Shown here one piece after another: positions 1-15,458 of a stretch of 64,000 nucleotides of DNA (position 1 is the first letter of the stretch; every line of letters begins with the position of its first letter). The notes below the pieces were generated by a model. It was given only the letters and a program-made list of their open reading frames with translations. It made no database searches and had not been told where the DNA came from. Origin of the DNA: Candidatus Binatota bacterium (GTDB lineage: Bacteria > Desulfobacterota > Binatia > UBA1149). The stretch spans positions 1-64,000 of the forward strand of contig DUBO01000042.1 of the NCBI GenBank assembly GCA_012960245.1, written 5' to 3'. Both the position numbers and the translations under genes were made by a program.

Positions 1-63
1 GACGCCGACGCTCTTGAGCAGGACTGCGACCTGTTCGACAACAGCGCAGCTGACAACAGCTGT
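1..63 (+). repeat. Tail of Cys-rich module, copy 1
   Basis: These 21 codons are nearly identical to codons 256-276 of the next two genes and keep the DCDLFDN-x-AAD-x-SC ending. Homology to the neighbouring copies ends just after this point, around base 75, where the gene switches to unrelated sequence. This is the third tandem copy, mostly outside the window. Confidence 0.85.
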
Positions 64-2373
64 TCCGCGCTTGGCATGATCGTCAGCGATTTCGTGGGAA
101 CCGAGCCGGCCTCGAACACGCCCTGGACGGCGACCTCCTACCTGGCGCCGAACCTGGTCTACTCGGGCTGGTACCACGGTGCCGGGACCTACCCGGTCCC
201 CGGGGTAGACGATGCCTTCGGCTTCTACGTGAACGCCACCGCCACTGTCAGCACCCTGGCCGAGGCCGTGGTTGATGACGAGTACCTGGGTTTCACGCTC
301 GAGGATCCGGCGGGGACTGTCGACCTGAACGCGAAGAAGGTCAACTTCAGCATCCAGCGCTTCAGCTGGCACGCACCGAGGCGGTACTCCCTCTTCACCA
401 GCGTCGATGGATTCCAGCCCGGTGACGAGATCTTCACCTCGAGCACCATTGCCCACGGCGACCTCGGTGTCGCCGACTTCGACTTCATCCTGCCTCTGAG
501 CGGCTACGACGCGATCGCCGGGCCGGTCGAGGTCCGCCTGTACGCGCACGAGGGCAGTTACAACCACCAGACGAGCATGGTTGCCTTTGAGATCATCGAG
601 CCCGGGCCGCTCTACACCTTGAATCTCAGTGCCGGACCAGGGGGTTCGGTGACCTCCGACCCGGCGGGGACGGTGTTCGAGGCGGGGACCGTGGTCAAGC
701 TGCAGGCGACGCCGGCGGTCGAGCACTCCTTCGGGGGCTGGACGGGCGAAGTCTCGGGCCTGGGCAACCCCCGCAGCATCACCATGGGAGCCGACACCAC
801 GGTCACCGGCGTCTTCAACGTCAATCCGCCGCCGAATATGACCCTGGGGATGAACCTGGGCAGCGTCGTGGACTGGGCCACCTCGTGGGACTTTGTTGAC
901 GTGTTCCGGATGAGCCGGACCTGGCTCACGCGCAGTGTGGGCGGGAGCGAGTGGGACAGCGGGATGAGCGCAGAGATGCCGACCGACGCGAACGGCTGGC
1001 CAACGGGCCTGCCCTTCCTCGCCAGCGACGGGGCCAATCACTTGGCGCACACGCTGCTGCCCGCGCCCGAAGCGGGGGACTACACCCTGATCCTCGAAGG
1101 CGCGGGCCGTATCCGGCTCAAGGCCCAGGGCGCCGGCACCCAGGAGTTCATCCCCACCGGAGGCGGAACCTCGACCTACACCTTCACCGTGCCCCCAGGC
1201 GGGGAGGGCTACATCTACCTGGAGATGCACGACTCGTCGTCGAGCGCCGACTACATCCGCAATCTGCGCCTGATCCGGCCGGGTTTCGCCGGTGTCTATC
1301 AGAGCGATCCCTTTCACCCCCTCTTCCTGCAGCGGCTCGCGACTTTCGCCAACCTGCGCTTCATGGACTGGGGCGAGACCAACGCCTCGCCGCTGGTCTC
1401 CTGGAGCGAACGGACGACAGTGGACACCTACACCCAGACGCGCGACGAGGGGGTGGCCCTGGAGCACATGGTCGAGCTGGCGAACACTCTCGACCAGGAC
1501 CCCTGGATTTGTATCCCGCACGAGGCCGATGACGACTACGTCCGGCAGACGGCCGCCCTGTTGCGCGACAGCGTGGATCCGTCACTGAAGATCTACGTCG
1601 AGTACTCGAACGAGACCTGGAATGGAATCTTCGAGCAGACCTCATACGTGCAGGCCATGGGATCGAGCCTGGGGCTCGATCCGGACCCTTGGACGGCGGG
1701 GCAGATCTTCTGCGCCATGCGCTCGGCGCAGATCTGGGAGATCTTCGAGCAGGAGTTCGTCGACGACAGCCGGTTGGTCAAGGTGCTCGCGACGCAGTCG
1801 GCGAACCTGTCCATCACGAGCGCGCGTTTCAGCGCCCTGAACGATCCGGCGATTAATCCCGCCTACAACATGCCGGACGCCCTCGCGGTCGCGCCTTACT
1901 TCGGCCAGGTCTACACCCCGGCCGACATTCCGCCCGCCGCGCCATCCTATCCCACGCTGGACGATATTCTGGACGTGGACGCGCCCGCGATGATAGCCAC
2001 GGCGTGGGCCGACGTTGTTGCGCAGAAAGCCGTTGCCGATACGCAGGGCGCGCGGCTGGTCTGCTACGAGGGGGGGCAGCACTTCGTGGGTAGCCTCGGC
2101 GCCGAGAACGACTTGACCCTGACCGGCATCCTGCAGGCGGTCAACCGCGACCCGCGCATGTACCAGCGCTACCTCGAGTACCTCGACCTGCTTCACGACG
2201 CGGGGGTGTCGATGTTCGGCAACTTCAGCTACGTGGGGGACTGGACCAAGTGGGGCTCGTGGGGAGTGCTCGAGGACCAGGCCCAGCCCGTGGCGGACGC
2301 ACAAAAGTACCGGGCCCTGGTTGACTGGACCCCCAGCGTCCCGCGCGTGGCGACGGCCTTGAGCTGCAGGTGA
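1..2373 (+). CDS. Secreted glycoside-hydrolase-like protein, 5'-truncated by the window edge
   Basis: The reading frame is open from base 1, so the start lies outside the window. Codons 1-21 are the tail of the Cys-rich module that also opens the next two genes (DCDLFDN signature, then Cys). A beta-sandwich-like stretch follows. Next comes an InlB-B-like bacterial repeat at about residues 203-278 (GGSVTSDPAGT, GGWTG). The rest is a long region with FMDWGETNA, and YVEYSNETWNGIF at about residues 535-547. Such Y-S-N-E-x-W-N motifs occur in secreted TIM-barrel glycoside-hydrolase-like proteins, where the Glu is a catalytic candidate. The substrate is unknown. The next gene starts 54 bp downstream on the same strand. 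A secreted polysaccharide-active role is inferred from domain type and neighbours. Confidence 0.75.
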   Translation, partial: DADALEQDCDLFDNSAADNSCSALGMIVSDFVGTEPASNTPWTATSYLAPNLVYSGWYHGAGTYPVPGVDDAFGFYVNATATVSTLAEAVVDDEYLGFTLEDPAGTVDLNAKKVNFSIQRFSWHAPRRYSLFTSVDGFQPGDEIFTSSTIAHGDLGVADFDFILPLSGYDAIAGPVEVRLYAHEGSYNHQTSMVAFEIIEPGPLYTLNLSAGPGGSVTSDPAGTVFEAGTVVKLQATPAVEHSFGGWTGEVSGLGNPRSITMGADTTVTGVFNVNPPPNMTLGMNLGSVVDWATSWDFVDVFRMSRTWLTRSVGGSEWDSGMSAEMPTDANGWPTGLPFLASDGANHLAHTLLPAPEAGDYTLILEGAGRIRLKAQGAGTQEFIPTGGGTSTYTFTVPPGGEGYIYLEMHDSSSSADYIRNLRLIRPGFAGVYQSDPFHPLFLQRLATFANLRFMDWGETNASPLVSWSERTTVDTYTQTRDEGVALEHMVELANTLDQDPWICIPHEADDDYVRQTAALLRDSVDPSLKIYVEYSNETWNGIFEQTSYVQAMGSSLGLDPDPWTAGQIFCAMRSAQIWEIFEQEFVDDSRLVKVLATQSANLSITSARFSALNDPAINPAYNMPDALAVAPYFGQVYTPADIPPAAPSYPTLDDILDVDAPAMIATAWADVVAQKAVADTQGARLVCYEGGQHFVGSLGAENDLTLTGILQAVNRDPRMYQRYLEYLDLLHDAGVSMFGNFSYVGDWTKWGSWGVLEDQAQPVADAQKYRALVDWTPSVPRVATALSCR

Positions 2374-2391
2374 CCGACGGTGCATCCGGTC

Positions 2392-2427
2392 CTTCCAGTA
2401 AACTACAGGGTGTGCCACCGTGGGCGG
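2392..2427 (+). promoter_or_regulatory. Duplicated 36-bp leader, copy 1
   Basis: The 36 bases before the GTG start match the 36 bases before the next gene's GTG at all but five positions (CTTCCAGTA ... CACCGTGGGCGG). The duplication therefore includes the translation start region. No good Shine-Dalgarno is visible; GGGCGG abuts the start codon. Confidence 0.55.
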
Positions 2428-4917
2428 GTGAACAGGACCTGGACTCTATGCGCGGCCCTCCTGCTGGTCGCCGGTGCTGCCGGCGCGCAACCCCTGGGCA
2501 AATCTTCGCAGGCCTGCGTCAACGCCATGAACAAGGGCGCCGCCAAGGTTTCGTCGGCCCAGGCAAAAGATAACAGCGGTTGTATTAAGCAGGCCGCGCG
2601 CCTGGAGCCTGCCGGAACGGGCGCCGAGGCTTGCCTCGTGGCCGACCAGCGGGGCAAGATCGCGCGTGCACAGGCCAAGACCCTGGCGGGCGAGACCCGC
2701 AGCTGCGACGTCACACCCAGCTTTGCCTACAGTTCAGGCCAGCTGGTCAACGCGGCCGCCGCGCGTGAAACGATGGCGCTGATACACGACGTGTACGGCC
2801 AGGACCTGGACGCGGCCGTCGTGGGCAAGGACGCGGACCGCAACGGGGCCACCTGCCAGTTGAGCGCCGCCAAGGGATCGGCCAAGTTGCTGGCGGCTGT
2901 TTCTCGCGAGTTCGTTGATACCAAGAAGAAAGGTCTGCGCGATGAGATTTTTGCGGACGCGGCCTCGCTGCAGCAGGCCTGCTTTGACGCGATCAACAAT
3001 GACCAACGCGGCAAGATCGCCCGCGCCGAGCAGAAGCTCGCCTCGCTGCTTGAAAAAAAGTGCGTGGCCCGTGGGGTCGACCTGGCGGCGGTCCTGGCTG
3101 GACAGTGCGCCGGCGAAGCCTCTGCCGGCTCTTCGGCGGCGGCTGACTGCGTCGAGGCGAGGGTACGTTGCCGCGCTTGCCGCCTGTTCAACGACGCCGA
3201 CGCTCTTGAGCAGGACTGCGACCTGTTCGACAACAGCGCAGCCGACAAAAGCTGCCCCGCCTGTGGCGACGGCGTGGTCGATCCCGGCGAAGAATGCGAG
3301 CGCAATCCGGACGGGGAGTGGGGCGTGCCTGAGTTTACCCTTACTATCCCTGCGCCGCCCCTGGGGCAGGGTGCATACCTGGTCGACATCCAGGCATCGT
3401 ATCCAGCCGTCGACTGGAGCACGCTCGACCGCCTTTACCTCGAAGGGGGTGAATACAAGTTTCTTCGTATAGGGAACCTCCCGGTGCGTTCGGCCGACCG
3501 ACCGTTGATCATCACCAACGTCAACGGGCGGGTCCGCGTGGGTGGCCAGGGACACTATTACCTGCTCTCTCTCAGCGGCGGGTCCAACTGGGTCTTGACG
3601 GGCAAGTACGACCCGGTATCCCTGACAGGGGATGCCGCGTTCCCTGGACACAGGGAAAACAACTACGCCAATACCCGTGGAACCTACGGAATCCTCGTCG
3701 ACGACGATTTTTATTTGTTCGGATCTGGGTTCTCAGGGGTCTCAGTAGGGAGCCAGGTACCGGTCGGCATCGTGAATCCGCCGACCAGTGACTACGAGCT
3801 TTCGTTTATCGAGATCCGCGAAGTGGGCTTTGCCGGCATGACCCTCAAGACTGACGACGGTACAGTACCGATGAACAACGTCTACGTTCACGACAACTAT
3901 ATCCACGACACCGGGAGCGAAGGGCTGTACATCGGCAGCACCCAGACGGCTCCGCAACATTCCTTCAACAACCTGCACATCGAAAACAACCGGATTCTGC
4001 GCACCGGGACCGAGGCCCTGCAGGTCGGGCAGCTTGGCGATGGCTGCAAGATCAATAACAACGTGTTCGCGCTCGCGGCCATTGACTGGAAGGACTCCTT
4101 CCAGGCCTTTCAGGACAGCACCAGCCAGATGGATGTGCGCTACGGCCAGAGCTCCATACACGACAACGTGTTCATCGGCGCGGCGAACACGCTGATCGGC
4201 TTCTTCGGTCAGGAAAGTGGAGACGTGCACGCACCCGGTGACGGCATGACGATCCACGACAATTTCTACAGCTCGTTTCGTTTCCTTGGGGCCTTCATGG
4301 GAGGCGACGCCGACGGGGTATCCGCGTACCAGGTCGAGCGAAACGTATTCCGGCAGTTCGACTTCCAACGCGACGAGATCTACGCGGGCAGCGTGCACCC
4401 GGGCCATCTGATCCGCGTGCACGCGACACAAACCAACCCGATCACGCTGCTAGACAACGTTTTTGACGAGCCCAGCCTCGAACTGGTCAACGGCCTGGGT
4501 GGAGCGCTCAACGGCACGGTGGGAAACATTACGGCCAGCGGCAACAGCCGTGGGACCGTCGACCCAGTCACGTTCAACGACTTTATGGGCTTGCCAGCCG
4601 ACGTTGACTACTTGCTGATCGAGCGTTGGAGCGCGACCTCGAGCAGGGCAGGAGGAGTGCCCACGATCTACAACACGGGTGACTACGTCATGCACGAGGG
4701 GAACTTCTATTTGTGTGTCGAAGCAGGCACCCACTCGGGCAAGGAGCCGACGACCAATCCGACCACGTGGCAGCTGTTGCCGTTACCGGGCGACGATGTT
4801 CGGTTGGCCCCCGGCTCGGCTCATACGGGCCTCGGATTGCTCGACACCGTGCCAGTGGGCAAGAAACACTTGCGCGCCGGGAGCAGTGGCAAGGAGTTTT
4901 TTCCGGCTTTTCGATAA
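2428..4917 (+). CDS. Secreted right-handed beta-helix protein with N-terminal Cys-rich module
   Basis: I chose GTG 2428 because it aligns codon for codon with the GTG start of the next gene. An in-frame ATG at 2380 would add 16 uncharged-poor residues before the signal peptide. The product has 829 residues. Residues 1-20 form a signal peptide ending AGA. Residues 24-276 are the shared Cys-rich module, followed by a single degenerate Myxo-type motif (CGDGVVDPGEEC). Residues about 455-720 show parallel beta-helix rungs with recurring N-N and H-D-N turns (VHDNYIHDTGSEG, IENNRIL). Residues about 744-782 (GDYVMHEGNFYLC ... W) resemble a chitin-type CBM5/12. Beta-helix folds of this kind are common in polysaccharide lyases and related enzymes. 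Catalytic residues cannot be assigned. A role in binding or cutting an extracellular polysaccharide is inferred. Confidence 0.75.
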   Translation: MNRTWTLCAALLLVAGAAGAQPLGKSSQACVNAMNKGAAKVSSAQAKDNSGCIKQAARLEPAGTGAEACLVADQRGKIARAQAKTLAGETRSCDVTPSFAYSSGQLVNAAAARETMALIHDVYGQDLDAAVVGKDADRNGATCQLSAAKGSAKLLAAVSREFVDTKKKGLRDEIFADAASLQQACFDAINNDQRGKIARAEQKLASLLEKKCVARGVDLAAVLAGQCAGEASAGSSAAADCVEARVRCRACRLFNDADALEQDCDLFDNSAADKSCPACGDGVVDPGEECERNPDGEWGVPEFTLTIPAPPLGQGAYLVDIQASYPAVDWSTLDRLYLEGGEYKFLRIGNLPVRSADRPLIITNVNGRVRVGGQGHYYLLSLSGGSNWVLTGKYDPVSLTGDAAFPGHRENNYANTRGTYGILVDDDFYLFGSGFSGVSVGSQVPVGIVNPPTSDYELSFIEIREVGFAGMTLKTDDGTVPMNNVYVHDNYIHDTGSEGLYIGSTQTAPQHSFNNLHIENNRILRTGTEALQVGQLGDGCKINNNVFALAAIDWKDSFQAFQDSTSQMDVRYGQSSIHDNVFIGAANTLIGFFGQESGDVHAPGDGMTIHDNFYSSFRFLGAFMGGDADGVSAYQVERNVFRQFDFQRDEIYAGSVHPGHLIRVHATQTNPITLLDNVFDEPSLELVNGLGGALNGTVGNITASGNSRGTVDPVTFNDFMGLPADVDYLLIERWSATSSRAGGVPTIYNTGDYVMHEGNFYLCVEAGTHSGKEPTTNPTTWQLLPLPGDDVRLAPGSAHTGLGLLDTVPVGKKHLRAGSSGKEFFPAFR
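2497..3255 (+). repeat. Cys-rich module, copy 2
   Basis: This segment encodes three Cys-bracketed units, each Cys - linker - GK or AK [VI]xxA[QRE]xK - linker - Cys. A final CRxC ... DCDxFDN ... SC segment closes it. It aligns without gaps to 5069-5827 in the next gene; I count about 25 amino-acid differences over roughly 280 codons by eye. Confidence 0.8.
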
Positions 4918-4963
4918 ACGCACGGTGTACTCCCTCCCCGGACGAGCGATGGTAAAAACCGGG

Positions 4964-4999
4964 CTTCCAGTAGACCACGGGGCGTGACACCGTGGGCGG
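4964..4999 (+). promoter_or_regulatory. Duplicated 36-bp leader, copy 2
   Basis: Second copy of the leader at 2392-2427, same length with five substitutions. An in-frame TGA at 4985 lies 15 bases before the GTG. GTG 5000 is therefore the first possible start in this frame, which also fixes the start of the preceding paralogue. Confidence 0.55.
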
Positions 5000-7900
5000 G
5001 TGACCAGAACCTGGACTCTCTGCGTGGCCCTTCTGCTGGTGGCTGGCGTCGCCGGCGCGCAACCCCTGGACAAACCTTCGCAGGCCTGCGTCAACGCCAT
5101 GAACAAGGGCGCGGCCAAGGTCTCGTCGGCCCAGGCAAAAGAGAACACCGGTTGTATTAAGCAGGCCTCGCGGCAGGAGCCTGCCGGCACGGGTGCCGAG
5201 GCTTGTCTCGTGGCCGACCAGCGCGGCAAGATCGCAAGAGCCCACGCCAAGACCCTGGCGGGCGAGACCCGTAGCTGCGACGTTACACCCAGCTTTGCCT
5301 ACAGTTCAGGCCAGCTGGTCAACGAGGCCGCCGCGCGTGAGACGACCGCGCTGGTACACGACGTTTACGGCCAGGACCTGGACGCTGCCGTGGTGGGCAA
5401 AGACGGGGATCGCAACGGGGCCGGCTGCCAGTTGAGCGGCGCCAAGGGCTCGGCAAAGTTGCTGTCGGCCGTTTTGCGGGAGTTCGTTGATACCAAGAAA
5501 AAAGGCCTGCGCGATGAGAGTTTTGCTGACGCGGGCTCGCTGCAGCAGGCCTGCTTCGACGCGATCAACAATGACCAACGCGGCAAGATCGCCCGCGCCG
5601 AGCAGAAGCTTGCCTCGCTGTTTGAGAAGAAGTGCGTAGCCCGTGGGGTCGACCTGGCTGCGGTCCTGGCAGGACAGTGCGCCGGCGAAGCCTCTGCCGG
5701 CTCTTCGGCGGCGGCTGACTGCGTCGAGGCGAGGGTGCGTTGCCGCGCTTGCCGCCTGTTCAACGATGCCGATGTTCTTGAGCAGGACTGCGACCTGTTC
5801 GACAACGGCGCGGCCGACAACAGCTGTCCTGCCTGTGGCAACGGCGTGGTGGAGGCCGGCGAAGAATGCGACGACGGCGTCGAGACTGCCACCTGCTACG
5901 CTGACTGCACGGCGACCGCCTGCCCCGACGGCACTTGCGGCCTTGGCGAGGATTGCGGCAACTGCGCGACCGACTGCGGTTCGTGTTGTGGCAACGGCAG
6001 CTGCGACAGCGGGCTGGGCGAAGACTACGTGAGTTGCCCGTCGGAATGCGATGCCCCGGGTAACTGCGACGTTGCTACCCCCTGGCAGGACATAGCACCC
6101 AGCCTGCTGGGCATAACCGACCTGTTGCCGTCGCTGCCCGACACGGCGCTGTCGGTTAGCTGGCCCGACCCGCTTCCGACTTTTCTCTCCGACACGCTTG
6201 CGCCCGTTGATCCACCGGTGGGTTGGACGCCCGATGATTCCACCTGCGACGTGTCGGTAAGCTGGGACGTCGATCGCGTCGAGGCGGGCCCCATCAAGGA
6301 CTACGCCGGCGATCCTCACTGCCGTGTCACTCTCACCGACCACCCCACCAACGGCAACGCTCTTTTCTTCGCTAATCGCTGGCCCACGGGCAGCATACAC
6401 ATACCCATTTCGGGCGATCCGACCTGGGCGCAGTTTCGCTTTCCGCTACCGCCCGCGCACCGGGCGGTGCGCCTCAACTACAGGATCGCCTGGGCGCGCC
6501 TGTTCGGCAGCCAGCCCGATCCATGCCACGCCGACGACACCGACGAGCTGGGCAACTGCATTCCCAAGTACAAGGAGGCCGCCGAGGATTGGAGCGAGAA
6601 TGTTCCACCCGGCCTGTTCCTGTTGTGGGGCAAGGCGGGCAACTGCCAGGGCTATGTGATTACCGGGCCCCACGATCCGGCGGCGGAAGTTTCTTACTCG
6701 GGAGCCCAAACTTACAGCGTAGACGTGCCTGAATCCTTGCAGACAGTAGACGAACTGGTGGTGGCGGCGTTCATATACCGCCAGTACCCCGGCGGGTGTG
6801 ACGGGGCCAACTGCCTGTCGGGACGCTTCGTGTACAACAGCATGGCAATACAGGATCTCACGCTGGACACCGAGGAAATCTTTAATCCTCCCTCGCTACC
6901 GGCCCTCGACCATCCGAGGTTGTTCGGGGCGAACGAGCAGTGGCTGGCCGGGCAGGAAGTATTTAACAACCTGCCCTGTTACTACGCGCCGGTTTACGAG
7001 GAAGGCGCGGGCTGGGGCTCGGTAACAAACATCCGTAATATGTGGGACGTCTATACCCGGGGCGGCAAGGTCTGCAACGGCGAGGACCCCGTGCTCATCG
7101 AAGACCATCCCGACGCGGCTCCTTACCTGGACGGTACGGCTGCGGGTAACTGGAACGAGGACCGAGCTATCCGCGTGCTGCACCTGCTGCGCCGCGTGCG
7201 CGCCTGCCACGAGCAGGGTGGCGGTGGCTGCCAGTTTTCGCTGGCTGATATCGACGCGCTGGTGGCACAGTTCATAGCCGTGGAGATCGCCCGTTTCGGT
7301 GACTGGACCTGGGAGAACCAGAGCCTGGTGTTCGACCTGGGGACGCTACCGCCCATGCGCTACTGGTCTATATTTGCCGATACCCTGTGGGATGACCTGT
7401 CGCAGGCCGACCACGACATCATAGCCACCGAGATGGGCAGCCGTATCGATGTCTTTCTGCAGCACGCCGAAAACCACCACTGGGCGTTGTACAACGGCAA
7501 CAACTGGACGCCGGTGTTGTCGCTGGCCGCCATGTACTGGGCGATTACCTATTACCACGAGGACCCCCGTGCACCGCAGGTGGCGCTGACCGCGCTCGGG
7601 GTTTTGTGGCTGCACCGTGATTTTTACCTGGCCGACGGCGCTTACAAAGAAGGGTTGATGATGTACACGCACGTGTCCTTCGACAACCTGCGGCAGATCA
7701 ACATGCTGTCGCGCGCTACTTTCGGCGAGTCCATCGACAGCGTACGCTGGGACCGTATGCCCGCAGTGAGTCAGTGGGCGCTGGAGTTCCTGGCACCCGA
7801 CGGCCTGACGGTGGACTACGGTGACTCCTGGGCCAAGCGCGGTTGGTCGACCTTCATGCCCCTGTACATGGCCATGGCGTCGGAGCTGATCGGGCAGGGG

Positions 7901-9085
7901 CCGGCGACCGTCGATCCCTGCACGGCGCGGGCTTATTTCAACAATCGCTGGTTCGACTGGGGCCTGCGCAATCCCTTTACTATTGATGCTTCGCTTGCGC
8001 GTGACTGGGTGGCCTTGGTCGAACAGTGCTCCGCGGCTGCGCTGGCCGGTACCCAGGTGACCGTGCTTGAGGAAGGCGGCTGGGGCAACATCCGCGTGGG
8101 CCTGCCCGGTTCTACGGTCACGGCGACGCTGGGCGATGTTGAACAACGCTACGAGCAGGCTGACCAGACCTTCTTGTCTGTAAGCGCCATCCCCAACACC
8201 TTCCCGCACACCGAGCTCGATTTCGGCAGCCTTGTATGGGTGGCTTACGGCACGCGACTTCTGGCTGACCTTGGTTACGGCTCGATTGATATCGGCTACG
8301 GGATTCCACCCGACTATGCTCCTGACAACAACCCCACCGGGCACAATACCCTGGTGGTACCCGGGGCCCTGTGGGACGGCGACCCGTCGACCAACACCAG
8401 CCAGGTAGAAGACACGCCGGGCATCATAGAGAGCCTCACCGTTTCTGGCATCGAGCTGCTGCACCTCGACGGTGACGCGGTTTATGGGCGTGATGACCTG
8501 GACGATGGATGGCTCGATACCTTTGACCGTTGGCTGCTGCCGCTCGATGGTGGGCACTTCATAGTCGCCGATGGCTTCCGGGTTAGAGCTGACCGGCCCG
8601 ACAGCAGCGTGCAGGAGTACTGGCACACTTACGACATGCTCACGCCGCCGGCCGCGGTAGACTGCCACTACACCAGCCAGCACGTGGAGATTAGCTTGCC
8701 CGACCCCGGCCGCCTGCACCTGCTGCCGGTCTGCAGTTCGCTCGACCGCTATGGCGCGGCCGAGAGCGCGGGGGAAATTGTCGGGGCCTCGCTCGCCGCC
8801 GGCGGTTTCGTAGTGGATGCCCCCTTCGAGTTTCTCAACCGCCTTGGCGGTACCGAGCGCAGGGGCCGCGCGCGCTGGGTTCCCGACCAGGCGCTAGGCT
8901 CCGACCTGCGGGTATTCCTGCTGCTGGCTGCGCCGTCGGAAGGCGCGCTTCCGGCCGCCACGATCACCCAGGATCCCTGCGCGGCTGACAGTTGCTTCCA
9001 GGTCAGTATCGGGGCCGACACCTGGGAGCTATCCTTCTCGGGCCAGGACGGGGTCTACTACCTGCTCAGTGTCGTCCAGCAGTGA
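5000..9085 (+). CDS. Secreted heparinase II/III-like polysaccharide lyase with Cys-rich module
   Basis: The product has 1361 residues. A signal peptide (ends AGA) is followed by the shared Cys-rich module (24-276). Myxococcus-type Cys-rich repeats follow (about 278-350; CGNGVVEAGEECDDG, then CGNGSCD). A beta-sandwich-like region spans about 350-620. From about 635 the protein resembles the heparinase II/III or alginate-lyase superfamily. It has an alpha-helical toroid with YNGNNWTPV (about 830) and YKEGLMMYTHVSFDN. A C-terminal beta-sheet part contains GHNTLVV (about 1114) and a GGHFIVADG strand. These motifs match the family's N-N-W and H-N-T signatures, so cleavage of a uronic-acid-containing polysaccharide is the likely role, but the substrate is not predictable. 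The gene ends convergently with phzF. Confidence 0.8.
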   Translation: MTRTWTLCVALLLVAGVAGAQPLDKPSQACVNAMNKGAAKVSSAQAKENTGCIKQASRQEPAGTGAEACLVADQRGKIARAHAKTLAGETRSCDVTPSFAYSSGQLVNEAAARETTALVHDVYGQDLDAAVVGKDGDRNGAGCQLSGAKGSAKLLSAVLREFVDTKKKGLRDESFADAGSLQQACFDAINNDQRGKIARAEQKLASLFEKKCVARGVDLAAVLAGQCAGEASAGSSAAADCVEARVRCRACRLFNDADVLEQDCDLFDNGAADNSCPACGNGVVEAGEECDDGVETATCYADCTATACPDGTCGLGEDCGNCATDCGSCCGNGSCDSGLGEDYVSCPSECDAPGNCDVATPWQDIAPSLLGITDLLPSLPDTALSVSWPDPLPTFLSDTLAPVDPPVGWTPDDSTCDVSVSWDVDRVEAGPIKDYAGDPHCRVTLTDHPTNGNALFFANRWPTGSIHIPISGDPTWAQFRFPLPPAHRAVRLNYRIAWARLFGSQPDPCHADDTDELGNCIPKYKEAAEDWSENVPPGLFLLWGKAGNCQGYVITGPHDPAAEVSYSGAQTYSVDVPESLQTVDELVVAAFIYRQYPGGCDGANCLSGRFVYNSMAIQDLTLDTEEIFNPPSLPALDHPRLFGANEQWLAGQEVFNNLPCYYAPVYEEGAGWGSVTNIRNMWDVYTRGGKVCNGEDPVLIEDHPDAAPYLDGTAAGNWNEDRAIRVLHLLRRVRACHEQGGGGCQFSLADIDALVAQFIAVEIARFGDWTWENQSLVFDLGTLPPMRYWSIFADTLWDDLSQADHDIIATEMGSRIDVFLQHAENHHWALYNGNNWTPVLSLAAMYWAITYYHEDPRAPQVALTALGVLWLHRDFYLADGAYKEGLMMYTHVSFDNLRQINMLSRATFGESIDSVRWDRMPAVSQWALEFLAPDGLTVDYGDSWAKRGWSTFMPLYMAMASELIGQGPATVDPCTARAYFNNRWFDWGLRNPFTIDASLARDWVALVEQCSAAALAGTQVTVLEEGGWGNIRVGLPGSTVTATLGDVEQRYEQADQTFLSVSAIPNTFPHTELDFGSLVWVAYGTRLLADLGYGSIDIGYGIPPDYAPDNNPTGHNTLVVPGALWDGDPSTNTSQVEDTPGIIESLTVSGIELLHLDGDAVYGRDDLDDGWLDTFDRWLLPLDGGHFIVADGFRVRADRPDSSVQEYWHTYDMLTPPAAVDCHYTSQHVEISLPDPGRLHLLPVCSSLDRYGAAESAGEIVGASLAAGGFVVDAPFEFLNRLGGTERRGRARWVPDQALGSDLRVFLLLAAPSEGALPAATITQDPCAADSCFQVSIGADTWELSFSGQDGVYYLLSVVQQ
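5069..5827 (+). repeat. Cys-rich module, copy 3
   Basis: Near-identical to copy 2 at the same codon offsets from the start. The same three Cys-bracketed basic units and DCDLFDN ending are present. After the module this gene carries full Myxo-type repeats, whereas copy 2 carries only a fragment and copy 1 none. Confidence 0.8.
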
Positions 9086-9148
9086 CCGTCGGGGTGTGAA
9101 GCCGGCACTGCTGACGGGGCGGCTTGGAACACCACGGCGATGCGGTGC

Positions 9149-9940
9149 TCAGACTTCGACTTCAATGGTGTCGCGAAGGCTGTAATGCCCGCTGACCGCC
9201 ACGTGGTCCACGAGCGTGTGGCAGAGTAGACGTGCTCCCCGTTCGGATAACTGGAGTACGACCACCTTGTCTTTGCCGTGCAGGCTGAGCCACATCGGGC
9301 CCAGCACCGAGCAGGACGAGCCGGTGGCAGGGTCCTCGGGTATACCCATGGCGGGTGCGAAGAATCGGGATTCGATATCGCAGCCGTCGCCGGGAGCGCA
9401 GACTATTACTTGGGCCTTGTCCAGTCCGGCCAGCGCTTTCATGTCGGGCTCAAGCCGTGCTATCTCGCCGGGCCTGTCAAACAGGCCCACGTAGTGGGTA
9501 TCCGTAACCAGCACCGTGGTCGGGATGGCTCCCAGTGCGCCGGCCAGTTGTCCGTCATCGTCTGCAGGTTGGCATGTAAGCGCCGGCAGAATTATTTCAA
9601 TCGATTCTTCGCCAAGCGGTCGAGCCTCCAGGCGACCGCTTCGGGTGTGAAAAGCCAGGCTGTGGATCGCCTTGCCCGCTTGGTCCAATAGCACCGCGGC
9701 GGTGGCCAGTGTCGCGTGTCCGCACAGGTCGACCTCGCAGGTGGGGGTAAACCACCGTAGGTCGTGGTCGCCGTCTTTGCGGGGGACTGCGAAGGCGGTT
9801 TCAGGCAGGTTCATATGAGCGGCGATGGCCTGCATCGCCTTATCGGGCAAGGGAGTATCGGGCAGGCATACCCCGGCCGGGTTGCCTCGCAGCCGCGGCT
9901 GATCGTCGAAGGCGTCTACCGTTGTTACGGGGACGTTCAC
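9149..9940 (-). CDS. PhzF-family isomerase-like protein
   Basis: The product has 263 residues, the usual length of the PhzF (phenazine biosynthesis-like) family with its two diaminopimelate-epimerase-like halves. The N-terminal TVDAFDDQP-RGNPAGVC motif and LPETAF with catalytic-type Glu47 are present. So is the second-half DPATGSSCSVLGP motif. Family members act on varied substrates and no phenazine genes are nearby, so the reaction is unknown. It starts 3 bp after the stop of the DUF2269 gene, so the two are probably co-transcribed. Confidence 0.88.
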   Translation of the reverse strand: MNVPVTTVDAFDDQPRLRGNPAGVCLPDTPLPDKAMQAIAAHMNLPETAFAVPRKDGDHDLRWFTPTCEVDLCGHATLATAAVLLDQAGKAIHSLAFHTRSGRLEARPLGEESIEIILPALTCQPADDDGQLAGALGAIPTTVLVTDTHYVGLFDRPGEIARLEPDMKALAGLDKAQVIVCAPGDGCDIESRFFAPAMGIPEDPATGSSCSVLGPMWLSLHGKDKVVVLQLSERGARLLCHTLVDHVAVSGHYSLRDTIEVEV

Positions 9941-9943
9941 TGT

Positions 9944-10414
9944 CTACAGGCTGCCCCTTGTTACCATGAGCAGGAACACGGCGATCATCGTCACGGTCGC
10001 GATAAGACCGGCGACGCTCCAGCGCCGGCTCAGGCTGATGTACTCCGCCTGGGCCTGGGCGTCATCGGCCGCGGCCGAGTGCGCCAGGCGTGCGAGCGCT
10101 GATTCTGCGCGAAAAGACCAGGCCAGTATGGCAGCCAGGACGGCGTAGAGCAGCAGGGCGGGCGGCAGCCAGCCGCTGCTGAACGAGTGCTCGCCGATCA
10201 GGGCCTGCACCAGTCCGGTGGCGGGCAGCAGCAGCGCGGCAGGCAGCATAAACAGACGATTGTTGAGCAGCACCTGCTGCATGGCCCAGCAGCGCCGCTG
10301 CCAGTCACCGTTGCGATCGGCTGCTGTTTTAAGCAGGCCGTTTGCCAGGCTGACGCCGAAAAATACCGACGCGGCCAGGAGGTGAACCGTCTTGAGCAGC
10401 AGTACCGGGTGCAC
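9944..10414 (-). CDS. DUF2269 integral membrane protein
   Basis: The product has 156 residues and four predicted membrane helices (about 5-27, 53-75, 83-103 and 132-153). The N-terminal LLKTVHLLAASVFFGVSLANG and a conserved W-rich second half match DUF2269. The function is unknown. It lies directly upstream of phzF with 3 bp between, and 70 bp downstream of the M36 protease gene on the same strand. Confidence 0.8.
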   Translation of the reverse strand: MHPVLLLKTVHLLAASVFFGVSLANGLLKTAADRNGDWQRRCWAMQQVLLNNRLFMLPAALLLPATGLVQALIGEHSFSSGWLPPALLLYAVLAAILAWSFRAESALARLAHSAAADDAQAQAEYISLSRRWSVAGLIATVTMIAVFLLMVTRGSL

Positions 10415-10484
10415 GCGGCACTGTTAGCTGTCTAGCTGCGAATGCACAAGCCGAGGCGAGGCAAGGGAAGCGAGTGTCGCCGGT

Positions 10485-13400
10485 TCAGTTGCAGCTGCCG
10501 TCGGCGAGGCCGTTGTCAAACTGGTCGCAGTCGTAGGCCATGTCGTCAATGACGTTGAGCTCCAGGCAGGTTTTGCACAACGTTACTTCGACCGCGCAGT
10601 CTGCAGCCGCTGTCCCGTCCGGGCTGGCCGAGCAACTTCCGGGCAGCGTCTGCGACACGTCAACCGAAGTGCAATTCTTTCTCATTTTACTGGATGTCTT
10701 GTTTCGGGCCCTGGCCAGTTTACCCGAGGAGTCCGTCGCCAGGACATCAAAACAGCCGGCCAGTTGTTCGCTACCCGTGAAACTTCCGGCCTTAAGTCCC
10801 GACTTCTTGCAGGCCTGGAACAGCTTGTGAACTGAGAACGACAGCTTGCTTGCCGAGAATTGCACGGTGGCCTGGCAGCGAGCGCCGTCTCGGTTCTCGG
10901 CCGTGGTAAGCGCTGCCGACGACAGGTCATTGCCGAGTAACCCGGCGACCAACGACAGTTCTCCGTCCTCCGCGCCGTCGCCGGCGGTCGCGGCGTCGGT
11001 GAAACCAAACGAGGGAGGCGACTGGCACTTGCCGAGCACGGTGTCACTCAGCTTCTGGCGGGCCTTGGCAACCTTGCCCTTGGGATCGGTCGTGATGCAG
11101 GCCTGGGCGCCCGCGGTGTCGCCCTTGGCGGCTGTTTTCATACAGCCCTTCGCGATCTTGCCACGGGCCTTGGCGACCTTGGACGCAGCCTTGTTGACCA
11201 ATACGATGCAGGCCTGCTGGGCCTTGTCTGGAGCCACCTCGGCGGCACATTCGTCCGAACAACCGTCACCGGGGGTGTTGTTGCCGTCATCGCAGCTTTC
11301 CACTCCCTGCTCGGTGTAGCCGTCGCCGCAGAAAGCCTCCAGGCAGTTAGCAGTACAGGCGTCGGTGTTACTGGAGTTGCCGTCGTCGCACTGCTCGCCA
11401 CTGTCCTGCACGCTGTCGCCGCACGAAGCGCTGCTGCAGTCGGTCCGGCACGCGTCGGGAGTACTGTCCGAGTTGGCGGGGCCGTCGTCGCACTCCTCGA
11501 CCCCAGCCTGCACCGCGCTGTCACCGCAGGTCGCGTCCAGGCAGGTGGACAGGCAGGCATCGGTATCGTCCAGGTTGCCGTCGTCGCACTGTTCGCCGGC
11601 AGTGGAGTTGACCGCCTGGTCGCCACAGGTCGCCGCCGTGCAATCGGCATCGCAGGTTGCTGATTCTCCAGAATCGTCGCAGTCCTCGCCCGGGTCGGTT
11701 ACGCCGTTACCGCAGGAAGACGTAACCTGGGTAACCACGGCCTGGCTGCCGCTTTGACCCTCGTTTGAACTTCCCTGGGCGCTTGCGCTGAGTGAAACCT
11801 CGGTCCCTATCTCGACGTTATCCAGGTACCAGCCGGTACCGGGCACGCTGCTGTCACTGCCCATGCGCCAGCGCAGCAGCACTTGCTCACCCGTCCAGGC
11901 CGATAGGTCTATGGTGGTCTGCAGGTACTCGCCGCTGCTTCCTGAGAAGGCCTGCCGTCCGCCCAGCGGATTGCTGCAACAGGTGTTAAGGCTGGAATTG
12001 TAGCCGTTGGCCGTCATCGCCGACCCGAGATCGCTCCAGCTGCTACCGCCGTCGCTGCTTATCTCGACGACACCGCCGTCGTAACCGGGCTCGGTGTTGT
12101 AGTCGTGCCAGAAGGTGAGCGTCGGGGTGCCGGCCACGGCGATGGGCGAGGCCGTGCGGACCCACAGGTCACTTTCGATGCCCGGGTCAGGCGCAAACCA
12201 CGACTGGCCCGAGCCGCCACCGGGATCGAAGCAGGTGGGAGAAGACAGGTCGGGTGTGACAAGGGTGAGACCCTCGATGCTGCTGATCACTATCGTTCCG
12301 CTGGCGAAAAACGGGTAAACATTCCACGCCCCCGCGAACGCCGCTGCATCGCTGGCCGGGTAGATGTCGAAGGACGCGACCTCGCACAGGTTTCCGTTGG
12401 CAATGTCGGAAAGGTCGATGATTCGCAGGCCGGTGGTGTAGTTCGATTCGTAGGCGTAGCCGTTCTTGATGTACAGGTTGTGGTCGATGCTGGGCAGGTG
12501 CGATGTGTAACTCGCGCCGAAAACAGGTGCGTCCAGGTCGCTTACGTCCACGATGTAGGTGCGCGTGTTGTGTCCGCCATATGCTTCGTCGAGCTCATCG
12601 TTGAGAAGCACGTAAGCGTGGTCCTCGGTGACCCATCCCTGATGGGTGTATGATACGCCGCTGTAGCCCGTCCGCGAGATCTGCACCGGGCTGCTCTTGT
12701 CCTCCACGTTAACGATGGTGAGCGTGTCCTCGTTGAAGGCGAAGCAGATTTCCTGGCCGCTGTAGGCCGAATCCGGTCCCGCGTAGACCACGCACTGCAC
12801 GTCGTGGGTGTAGCCGTCGCCCGAGTAGCAGCCGGCCTGCACGGGCGAGGCGGGCGACGACAGGTCGACCATGTGCAGCCCGGCCGAGCAGGTGCTGCTG
12901 CCCACCACGTATGCAAAGCCCGTGTCCTCGTTGATCGCTATGTTGTGGGCGTTGCCGAAGTTGGGGTAGTGGGCGGTCTCGCTGAAAGTGACGGGTGGCG
13001 ATGCCACCGAACGCAAGCCGGTGAGATCGAACACCTGCATGCCGTGTGCGCCGTTATTATCGGAGACGATGTAGACGTGGTCGGCGTATACCTTCATGTC
13101 GCGCCAGGCGCTTTCGCCGGTGGCCGTTGGCAGGTCGCCGAGGTAGATAGGAGCGGCCGGGTCGGTGACGTCAAGGAACGAGGTGCCAGTGGAGCGTCCG
13201 GCTATGGCGTACTCGCTCCCGGTGGTGCTGTCGGTCCAGCCCCAGCTGTCGTTACCGTCTCCCCCGCCTATGGCCGACATGGGGAAGAACTGCTCAAGAT
13301 CTACCGAGTTGCAGGAGAATACGTCGGCCTTGCCGTCGATGCAGGCCGTGGCACCCACCGTGGTGGTAGGCACCGACTTACTCGACCCCTTTCCGCCGAA

Positions 13401-15458
13401 AGGATTGCTTCCGCTCAGGCTCCAGTCAGCACTTCCAAGGTTATGGCCAGCCACCCACGCTCCACTGCCCGATTCCATGTCGTCGGAAAACGCTACCTGG
13501 GTACCCGAACCGGGGCCTACCAGCACCTGGTAACTGCGCTGGGCCTGCGCCCCGGCCGCCAGCGAGAACGTCGACCAGCTCACAGTGCCGCCCGATTCCG
13601 AGCCGCCGTCACTGGCCGAGCCGGCGATATAGCTGGAGCCCGAAGGCACCGTGGCAGAAAGAGCGACGCCTGTAAGACTCGATCCCCCGGTATTGGTAGC
13701 AGTCACCGTGTAGTTAAGAGCCGAGCCGGCAAACGCGGGGTCATCGGAGGGTACTATGCCGACAGACAGGGTTGACGGCGGGGTACATGCAACACCGCTC
13801 AATATCCCGCGGTCACAGAACGCCGTTCGGATAGTCGCGTCGTCCAACCCGGAGTAGAGGTTGACGTTTGCCTGCAGCAGGGCCAGTGCCGCGTCTGTCA
13901 TCGTTGCGTTACACGGTACCGAGAAGTGGTGCTCCAGCACCAGCGTGTCGGCCTTGGTCGCGCCAAGTGCCAGCCTTATGTCCCACACGGCGCGCGACCA
14001 GATTTCTCCGTCTGCGTGTGCTGAGCCCACCAGGTCTCCGGGATAGGTCTTGTTGCCGTCAACGCGCCTGAGGCAGGCCGGGTTTCCCGAGCCAAAGGAG
14101 GTGGCGTCCCAGTCGCCCACGCAGGCCGCGTGGGAAGCCTGGTAGGTGGCGTCGCCATTGGGCAAGTAGAAACTGGCGGCCAGGTAGTCGCCGAAGCCCT
14201 CGCCCATGGCTCCCATATCCCCGCCACCCCAGCAGGCATTCTGGTCGTGCTGGACCGCGTGCCCATACTCGTGGGCAATGATGTCGGCGTCCTCTCCGTC
14301 GTCGATACCGCCGTCACCGAAGTGCACGGCGTCGTCGCCAGTGGAGTAGTAGGACTGGTCATCAGCAAACCAGTGCGCGTTGGCCAGCGTTGGAAAGTCA
14401 CGAATGCCGTTGGCCGGTGGCGTGTCGTCGTCAAAGCCGAGCGAGTGAAACCAGCGCTGCAGTGAGTCGATGGAGTGGTAGATGGTTACTTCTTCGAAAC
14501 GATCGTCGTCGCGATCGTAGTTATAGACACGGCTGGGCTCGTCGGCCACGGTCACAACGAGACCTCCAGTCAGCGTGAGATCTACGTATTCTCCCTTGAT
14601 ACGGCCGGTTCCCGCGTCCAGCCCCAGCAGCGTAACCGCGCTTCGCTGGGCGTCAAGAGTTGCGCTGGTCAGGTCCGAGTTATCAGTGAGACCGGTGTTG
14701 CCCGACGTTTGCACCGGGTTAGGCAGGAAGACCAGGCCACTGCCGGTGTCAAAGGCAATGCGGTTTTCCTGGAACAGTATCTTGCCGGTGACCCCGTCGA
14801 CAACGGTGAGAAAATCTCCCAGCGGTTCGGCTGCCCATATCCACAGCTCGTGTGCCACCCTGAGAGTGCCGTCGGCGGCTGCGAACCACACCAGCCGGTG
14901 GTCGTGACGCATGCGCTCGGCGGTCACGCCTGCCGCGGCAAGCGCCGCGCGCCGGGCGGCGGCGCGACGAACCTTTGGTCGCCTGGGCTTGCTTATCGGC
15001 GCGACGCTGTAGTTTGTGTGCAGGGCCTGCACGTCCCCTGAAGGTCCCTGGTGCACCGACAGCCACGCGTTGAACACCGGCCTTCGATTTACGGTCTGTT
15101 CAAAACGGGTATGGGCGCTCGCCAGTCCGCGCTTGATCTGCACGGTTCTGAGGCCGGCCACGCCCTCTGCGCCCATCTTCAGCGCTGGCGAGTATTGCTC
15201 GAGGAAGTGGCGAGCGGTCTGTTCGGGGGTATCAAGGGATCCACCGGCAGAGCAGGCCCGGTAGCTGCGGCGCCGGGTCATGTCGATGGTCTTGGCGTTG
15301 GGTTGCAGCAGGCAGGGAAGCCGTAGCGAATCTTCGGGGTGACGGTCGGTGTCGCGCGCGATCAGCTGGGCAGGTGACGGGGCTACCGCGACCGAGCTGA
15401 GGGCCAGTGTAGCCATGGCCAGAAAGGCCAGGGGACGGGCGGCAAAAGACATTTTCAA
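10485..15458 (-). CDS. Giant secreted M36 (fungalysin-type) metalloprotease with nested propeller and Cys-rich tail
   Basis: The product has 1657 residues. TTG 15458 is preferred over the ATG six bases on because an AGGA sits 7 nt before it. In order it has a signal peptide (1-30) and an FTP/PepSY-like propeptide (about 75-230). The peptidase comes next, with zinc motif HEYGH at 396-400 and GEGFGD at 419-424, giving the third ligand candidate Glu420. A DUF11-like repeat (563-645) and a jelly-roll of the immune-inhibitor-A/MAM type (655-698 and 1080-1218) follow. The jelly-roll is interrupted by a choice-of-anchor-B propeller (about 700-1077). Myxo-type Cys-rich repeats (1248-1405) and the shared Cys-rich module (1410-1657) end it. 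It probably hydrolyses extracellular protein. The domain order mirrors the lyase gene: catalytic part first, module last. Confidence 0.85.
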   Translation of the reverse strand: MKMSFAARPLAFLAMATLALSSVAVAPSPAQLIARDTDRHPEDSLRLPCLLQPNAKTIDMTRRRSYRACSAGGSLDTPEQTARHFLEQYSPALKMGAEGVAGLRTVQIKRGLASAHTRFEQTVNRRPVFNAWLSVHQGPSGDVQALHTNYSVAPISKPRRPKVRRAAARRAALAAAGVTAERMRHDHRLVWFAAADGTLRVAHELWIWAAEPLGDFLTVVDGVTGKILFQENRIAFDTGSGLVFLPNPVQTSGNTGLTDNSDLTSATLDAQRSAVTLLGLDAGTGRIKGEYVDLTLTGGLVVTVADEPSRVYNYDRDDDRFEEVTIYHSIDSLQRWFHSLGFDDDTPPANGIRDFPTLANAHWFADDQSYYSTGDDAVHFGDGGIDDGEDADIIAHEYGHAVQHDQNACWGGGDMGAMGEGFGDYLAASFYLPNGDATYQASHAACVGDWDATSFGSGNPACLRRVDGNKTYPGDLVGSAHADGEIWSRAVWDIRLALGATKADTLVLEHHFSVPCNATMTDAALALLQANVNLYSGLDDATIRTAFCDRGILSGVACTPPSTLSVGIVPSDDPAFAGSALNYTVTATNTGGSSLTGVALSATVPSGSSYIAGSASDGGSESGGTVSWSTFSLAAGAQAQRSYQVLVGPGSGTQVAFSDDMESGSGAWVAGHNLGSADWSLSGSNPFGGKGSSKSVPTTTVGATACIDGKADVFSCNSVDLEQFFPMSAIGGGDGNDSWGWTDSTTGSEYAIAGRSTGTSFLDVTDPAAPIYLGDLPTATGESAWRDMKVYADHVYIVSDNNGAHGMQVFDLTGLRSVASPPVTFSETAHYPNFGNAHNIAINEDTGFAYVVGSSTCSAGLHMVDLSSPASPVQAGCYSGDGYTHDVQCVVYAGPDSAYSGQEICFAFNEDTLTIVNVEDKSSPVQISRTGYSGVSYTHQGWVTEDHAYVLLNDELDEAYGGHNTRTYIVDVSDLDAPVFGASYTSHLPSIDHNLYIKNGYAYESNYTTGLRIIDLSDIANGNLCEVASFDIYPASDAAAFAGAWNVYPFFASGTIVISSIEGLTLVTPDLSSPTCFDPGGGSGQSWFAPDPGIESDLWVRTASPIAVAGTPTLTFWHDYNTEPGYDGGVVEISSDGGSSWSDLGSAMTANGYNSSLNTCCSNPLGGRQAFSGSSGEYLQTTIDLSAWTGEQVLLRWRMGSDSSVPGTGWYLDNVEIGTEVSLSASAQGSSNEGQSGSQAVVTQVTSSCGNGVTDPGEDCDDSGESATCDADCTAATCGDQAVNSTAGEQCDDGNLDDTDACLSTCLDATCGDSAVQAGVEECDDGPANSDSTPDACRTDCSSASCGDSVQDSGEQCDDGNSSNTDACTANCLEAFCGDGYTEQGVESCDDGNNTPGDGCSDECAAEVAPDKAQQACIVLVNKAASKVAKARGKIAKGCMKTAAKGDTAGAQACITTDPKGKVAKARQKLSDTVLGKCQSPPSFGFTDAATAGDGAEDGELSLVAGLLGNDLSSAALTTAENRDGARCQATVQFSASKLSFSVHKLFQACKKSGLKAGSFTGSEQLAGCFDVLATDSSGKLARARNKTSSKMRKNCTSVDVSQTLPGSCSASPDGTAAADCAVEVTLCKTCLELNVIDDMAYDCDQFDNGLADGSCN
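10488..11231 (-). repeat. Cys-rich module, divergent C-terminal copy
   Basis: Residues 1410-1657 of the protease carry the same layout as the three plus-strand copies: three units of Cys - x - GK/AK[VL]AxARxK - x - Cys, then CKTC ... DCDQFDN ... SC. Sequence identity is low outside these positions, so this copy is old, unlike the recent tandem copies. Confidence 0.7.
12228..13361 (-). other. Choice-of-anchor-B type propeller inserted within a jelly-roll domain
   Basis: Residues about 700-1077 carry repeated strand pairs of the type FLDVTDPAAPIYLG, VFDLTGL, MVDLSSPASPVQAG and IVDVSDLDAPVFG, typical of choice-of-anchor-B (LVIVD-like) propellers. On either side are the two halves of one MAM/immune-inhibitor-A-like fold: DDMESGSGAW ... 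FGGKGSS, and SWFAPDPGIESDLWV ... GWYLDNVEIG. The reading frame is continuous. Confidence 0.65.

Follow-up and report, generated by a model that had tools for sequence, protein, structure and literature searches.

How uncultured diderm lineages keep their extracellular enzymes is largely unknown. Among described terminal attachment modules, SLH units measure ~55 aa, occur in threes and are not Cys-rich. The CTERM signals follow another scheme, in which a short C-terminal signature is joined to a TM helix and a basic tail and is cleaved by a dedicated protease. In CWB2, three motifs are placed at one or the other terminus of proteins of Clostridioides difficile, where they bind to an anionic polymer (PMC4973711).

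Here we describe a Cys-rich module on secreted proteins of the class Binatia (Binatota/UBP10), starting from a genome of UBA1149, an order known from gas-rich vents and from Lake Kivu (PMC8262859). The analysed stretch (the window) covers the initial 64 kb of a contig of 78 kb, which belongs to a MAG of 2.8 Mb. An earlier note on this DNA had described the module on four large proteins and proposed a common targeting, anchoring or glycan-binding role.

Module copies in the window

In agreement with that note, the beta-helix protein, the lyase and the M36 protease carry full copies of the module, and gene 1 carries its tail (Table 1). The copies measure ~247-253 residues, which corrects the ~230 given before. 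Genes 2 and 3 carry modules with 92% identity at both the protein and the DNA level, and the protease module shares 36-37% identity with them over 249 residues (BLASTP, E = 6e-45), a likeness that, judged by sequence, lies far beyond chance. Gene 2 likely begins with a GTG at 2428 and encodes the signal peptide VNRTWTLCAALLLVAGAAGAQ; a weak CBM5/12-like stretch at its C-terminus (CBM_5_12, below cut-off) lies outside the module. The protease gene product stops directly after the last Cys of its module. Myxo-type repeats between module and enzyme, also reported earlier, were recovered in the protease by DUF4215/TIGR02232 matches and can be made out in the lyase. The "heparinase-like" label of the lyase finds weak backing in PDB entry 8khv (heparinase II/III-like, E = 2.4e-6) and none in Pfam. 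Elsewhere in the window, positions 15887-20116 (+) encode a secreted propeller protein of FG-GAP/integrin-like type, after which come over 20 tandem repeats of 12 residues each (DCAGVCNGTA, 36-nt period, ~18394-19623).

Gene 1 is cut by the assembly only. The end of another contig of the same genome (C3, locus L055, G000:C3, 1-205) holds a signal peptide and the first 31 residues of another module, 95.6% identical to gene 2. This fragment is probably the missing start of gene 1, so that C3 would join the window's contig (C42) there. Contig ends of the MAG fall within near-identical modules, and the assembly break at window position 1 is probably due to such near-identical copies.

Table 1 Features of the module-bearing genes in the window
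Feature	Position	Strand	Remarks
C-terminal 22 residues of a module, DADALEQDCDLFDNSAADNSC	1..66	+	At contig edge; N-terminal end of first visible gene
Gene 1, truncated at contig start, enzyme part unassigned, InlB-like repeat PF18998	1-2373	+	
Block of upstream region, signal peptide and gene 2 module	2392..3299	+	blastn, 91% identity to 4964-5871 of gene 3
Gene 2: module, short Cys-rich start, parallel beta-helix protein	2428..4917	+	Beta_helix
Gene 2 module copy, 253 aa	2503..3261	+	Without Cys equivalent to 140
Gene 3: signal peptide, module, Cys-rich repeats, heparinase II/III-like enzyme	5000..9085	+	
Gene 3 module copy, 253 aa	5075..5833	+	
M36-like protease gene: DUF11, choice-of-anchor B, MAM-like domain, Myxo-type Cys repeats, C-terminal module	10485..15458	-	
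Protease module copy, C-terminal, 247 aa	10488..11228	-	All 14 conserved Cys; AlphaFold2-modelled
Myxo-type/DUF4215 Cys-rich repeats linking enzyme to module, protease	11229..11681	-	Approximate limits, from translation
Choice-of-anchor B domain of protease	12270..13346	-	TIGR04312, 485 bits

Reuse of the module on different enzymes

A 908-nt block of 91% identity is common to genes 2 and 3; it reaches from upstream of the gene to just past the module, and the enzymes behind it are unrelated. With a dN of 0.041 against a dS of 0.247, the two module copies are under purifying selection. In the sister genome UBA1149, the locus contains the module-heparinase gene only, and the heparinase-like enzyme of gene 3 was found in only 2 of 145 class genomes. 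Along with the signal peptide and the region upstream, the module has been copied onto different enzymes; it is the older, shared part of these proteins, and the cargo is recent.

Anatomy and predicted fold

The module spans ~247 residues with 14 conserved Cys and consists of two tandem four-Cys helical hairpins followed by a six-Cys acidic tail (CxxC..DCDxFDDG..SC). In an alignment of 52-64 copies, the 14 Cys columns are kept in 86-100% of copies; in the protease copy they correspond to positions 7, 29, 44 and 68 (first hairpin), 118, 140, 159 and 186 (second hairpin), and 199, 211, 218, 221, 234 and 246 (tail). Each hairpin unit is built of a long helix (Cys-x21-Cys), a loop and a shorter helix closing in Cys. 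The two hairpins go back to an internal duplication: a profile-profile comparison matches them with a probability of 98% (E = 3e-13), whereas the highest value among 50 column-shuffled controls was 2.7%. The three repeated units described in the earlier note are actually three of the four helices in the two hairpins; the fourth bears two Cys of its own (positions 118 and 140 of the protease module), one of which is lost in the tandem genes.

AlphaFold2, run on the protease copy with a 52-row alignment, yielded an all-alpha model (pLDDT 95.8, pTM 0.92), and the module is predicted to form one compact domain, in which the 14 conserved Cys would pair into seven disulfides. Lys or Arg occupies 14 non-Cys columns in at least 75% of copies, compared with 4 acidic columns. 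In both long helices, basic columns fall at Cys+6, +10, +17 and +24 and form a stripe on one side of the helix, with the register shared by the two hairpins (p = 0.004 and 0.002 when compared with random helix positions, values that are generous since the null ignores the forced exposure of charged residues). On average, the hairpins carry charges of ~+5.5 and +4.3 and the tail ~-5.4; the net charge of the whole module spans -14 to +14.

Furthermore, the window's genome encodes divergent proteins with one or two half-modules, i.e. single hairpins (L057 5214-7391, L056 9352-12174, L058). The four-Cys hairpin may represent a wider repeat family.

Distribution, position and partner domains

Profile searches detected the module in 46 of 148 Binatia genomes. 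From the other classes of the same phylum, 379 genomes were searched as part of an even sample, and none has it. These sensitive searches covered the phylum, and the taxonomic clustering that the earlier note had suggested looking for is clear at that scope. A scan of 84,980 species with very narrow peptide patterns returned UBA1149 only, the patterns being too narrow to show absence outside the phylum; plasmid records gave no match. Within Binatia, the module is near-universal in families f1-f4, f8, f9, f11 and f113 and almost absent in f5, f7, f12 and f117. The window's genome has 17 matches, and the highest count per genome is at least 18.

Positions were counted in 71 module proteins from fetched loci. 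The module begins ~13 residues past the predicted signal-peptide end in 43 (mature start like AQxQTxxQQxC) and ends at most 25 residues from the C-terminus, mostly within 1-5, in 23; the remaining five fall in neither class, one of them being N-terminal by eye. With 66 of 71 terminal, before the enzyme in the two tandem genes and after it in the protease, the reported use of either end extends well beyond the window. Repeated switching between the ends is suggested by the tree rather than proved (10-11 changes by parsimony; a tree that unites the C-terminal modules in one clade escapes formal rejection, AU p = 0.055). A signal peptide was recognized in 62 of the 71 by a simple hydrophobicity rule; of the nine proteins in which it failed, three are truncated at a contig end. 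Lipobox-like motifs occurred in 2 and a C-terminal TM-like tail in 1 of 88 module proteins. In one genome (G022), C-terminal modules (L086 8717-8779, L207, L208) share ~15 extra residues past the last Cys, ...GAF(L/V)DGxxxxF, possibly a lineage-specific sorting or processing tail.

The 53 partner regions fell into 29 mutually unrelated clusters (BLASTP 1e-5, Cys-rich linkers masked). Pfam assigned M36, BNR/sialidase-like, PD40, SASA esterase, Abhydrolase_10 and beta-helix partners, as well as FG-GAP with haloperoxidase-like domains, EGF, RHS/PKD, lamin-tail and reprolysin. Two proteins are little more than signal peptide and module (L201, 296 aa; L202, 324 aa). Neither an absence of fusions to unrelated catalytic domains nor a match to a described domain, both set beforehand as grounds against the module, occurred.

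Searches for a named family

Consistent with the earlier failure to name the module, searches against Pfam and NCBIfam with whole proteins, against Pfam with 52 isolated modules, and against solved structures returned nothing above noise. The best sequence-profile hit in the PDB had an E of 0.25, and Foldseek found no match at E 0.001 in the PDB or among viral models. The best VIA match of the module model was PhoU-like (Z 9.8, rmsd 5.9, 6% identity), within the noise for helical bundles. None of the 52 modules matched CBM Pfam models, nor SLH or CWB2 models, in which three repeats would face the two seen here; DUF4215 matched whole proteins outside the module only and none of the 52 modules scanned alone. 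The comparison with a dockerin drawn in the earlier note finds no support as kinship, since the 52 modules yielded no reliable match to dockerin, cohesin or EF-hand models (PF00404: 0/52 at E 0.1; isolated weak EF-hand matches in single members) and dockerins occur on other proteins of the same genomes. No description of the module was found in the open-access literature, subscription papers being outside the scope of that search. In summary, this is an unnamed domain family with a well-supported architecture and a function that we infer, falling outside every known attachment family for which membership could be tested.

Alternative tails on choice-of-anchor B proteins

TIGR04312 is named for proteins with varying anchors, and full-length matches were present in nine genomes of the class. 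In six of these (G000, the window's own, and G001, G002, G003, G017 and G022), the protein ends in the module. Relatives elsewhere end differently: an M36 relative of the same layout has a tail of five disintegrin-like Cys repeats (G485); a TIGR04312 relative in G473, a genome with no module match, bears a dockerin-like pair (22.6 bits, just below the cut-off of 22.9); and another has a lipoprotein-type N-terminus, read by eye (G495). In choice-of-anchor B proteins of the class, the module takes the end where relatives have dockerin-like repeats, another Cys-rich tail or a lipoprotein signal. The same logic of alternative tails on homologous proteins was earlier applied to GlyGly-CTERM (PMC3237569).

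We rejected dockerins as a genome-level alternative to the module: they co-occur with it in 28 of 46 module genomes and are found in 13 of the rest, so the two can be alternatives per protein at most. On one and the same protein they almost never meet (2 loop-like matches in 88). Across the class, dockerin-like domains occur in 41 and cohesin-like domains in 20 of 145 genomes; within the window's order, 12 of 13 genomes have no cohesin-like domain, and the window's own has a marginal match below cut-off. MYXO-CTERM-like tails were detected in 14 class genomes from four families and in none of the 13 of the window's order.

Proposed role and alternative explanations

We propose that the module is a Binatia-specific, non-catalytic terminal attachment module that would hold its cargo non-covalently on the cell's own envelope or coat via the Lys stripes, a reading to which we give about even chances. 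The targeting and anchoring part of the role suggested earlier agrees with the position of the module at the termini and with what the choice-of-anchor proteins show; the role itself we infer. After leaving the cytoplasm by Sec, module proteins would acquire their seven disulfides in the periplasm and then pass through the outer membrane in folded form, probably via the type II system. The module would then keep the cargo at the cell surface or extracellular coat, with the conserved Lys stripes on the hairpins as the likeliest contact and an anionic envelope polymer as the candidate ligand. Two GspD secretins scored over the cut-off. GspD is nearly universal in the class, so the type II step is no more than plausible and GspD uninformative as a discriminator; the type II system was dropped as a discriminating partner of the module for the same reason. 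With lipoboxes and TM tails almost absent, the module is the candidate for retention, if the proteins are retained at all, and the substrate-agnostic cargo speaks for attachment to self. Counting against a pure anchor are the proteins of 296 and 324 aa, which would be needless; a further point against the proposal is that dockerin domains and modules share genomes and do not stand in for one another. The Lys stripes could serve folding or solubility instead.

The cargo also bears on the reading that comes nearest, a substrate- or glycan-binding, CBM-like module bringing enzymes to an external polymer and not to the cell. CBMs likewise sit at either end of enzymes, and a number of the partners are directed at polysaccharides or glycans (heparinase II/III-like, beta-helix, BNR, SASA esterase); the proteases, haloperoxidases, alpha/beta hydrolase, EGF, RHS and lamin-tail partners, however, have no common substrate, and an all-alpha fold that has conserved Lys but, a few core-like Phe apart, lacks a conserved aromatic platform makes this function unlikely in our view. 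The stand-alone modules, high copy number and dipolar charge that would suit a self-assembling matrix, in which head-to-tail copies build an extracellular sheath or coat carrying the enzymes, are set against a net charge that varies widely; oligomers remain a prediction, and we consider such assembly quite improbable.

Disulfide-rich domains might also mark cargo for the type II system, or aid folding or protease resistance. GspD is present, and the similarly varied MYXO-CTERM and GlyGly-CTERM proteins depend on or co-occur with a T2SS (PMC11980579, PMC3237569). The T2SS, however, occurs in nearly all Binatia and the module in a third, and the M36 and choice-of-anchor relatives of G485, G473 and G495 do without the module, which leaves a secretion or folding determinant very improbable. 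A prodomain or inhibitor that silences the enzyme until its removal would match the N-terminal position directly past the signal peptide in 43 of 71 proteins; given 23 modules at the C-terminus and one module family on unrelated enzymes and non-enzymes alike, we find it scarcely credible.

Across several families of Binatia, the module marks up to ~20 secreted proteins per genome, and neither Pfam nor NCBIfam has a name for it. A module profile would annotate hundreds of hypothetical proteins and give a handle on the Binatia surface, and the module itself is a potential compact, disulfide-rigid fusion tag.

Comparison with known attachment systems

The closest functional parallels are CWB2 and SLH, with which the module shares a terminal position on varied exoproteins (66/71; 29 clusters), a parallel that is one of function only. 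Like the CWB2 repeats of Firmicutes cell wall proteins, it is non-catalytic, built of repeats, found at either end of many different surface proteins and proposed to anchor non-covalently (PMC4973711). Unlike CWB2, it is one disulfide-rich two-hairpin domain and not three tandem motifs, and its host is diderm. SLH modules are likewise terminal attachment modules on unrelated exoproteins, built of repeats, and bind an envelope polymer. Type I dockerins resemble it as small modules that also occur in Binatia, in the corresponding place of the choice-of-anchor B relative in G473; the module differs from them in fold and size and lacks the dockerin calcium loops. With MYXO-CTERM, GlyGly-CTERM and PEP-CTERM, it has in common that one tag serves many unrelated secreted proteins and that homologues bear alternative tags (PMC3237569), whereas the module is a 250-aa folded domain without a TM helix and is also found N-terminally. 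The DUF4215/Myxo repeat (TIGR02232) is similarly disulfide-rich and often adjoins the module as a linker, but it is a separate sequence family.

By analogy, the module is best read as working like SLH, CWB2 or dockerin modules and as not homologous to them. More tentatively, and on the doubtful side, it might be the founding member of a new diderm class of non-covalent surface attachment, a duplicated disulfide-stapled hairpin whose paired Lys stripes grip an anionic envelope polymer, serving as a general anchor for the extracellular proteins of Binatia, with copies that stand alone being part of the coat. If the attachment role is true, the module would be an independently evolved addition to the short list of terminal surface-attachment modules.
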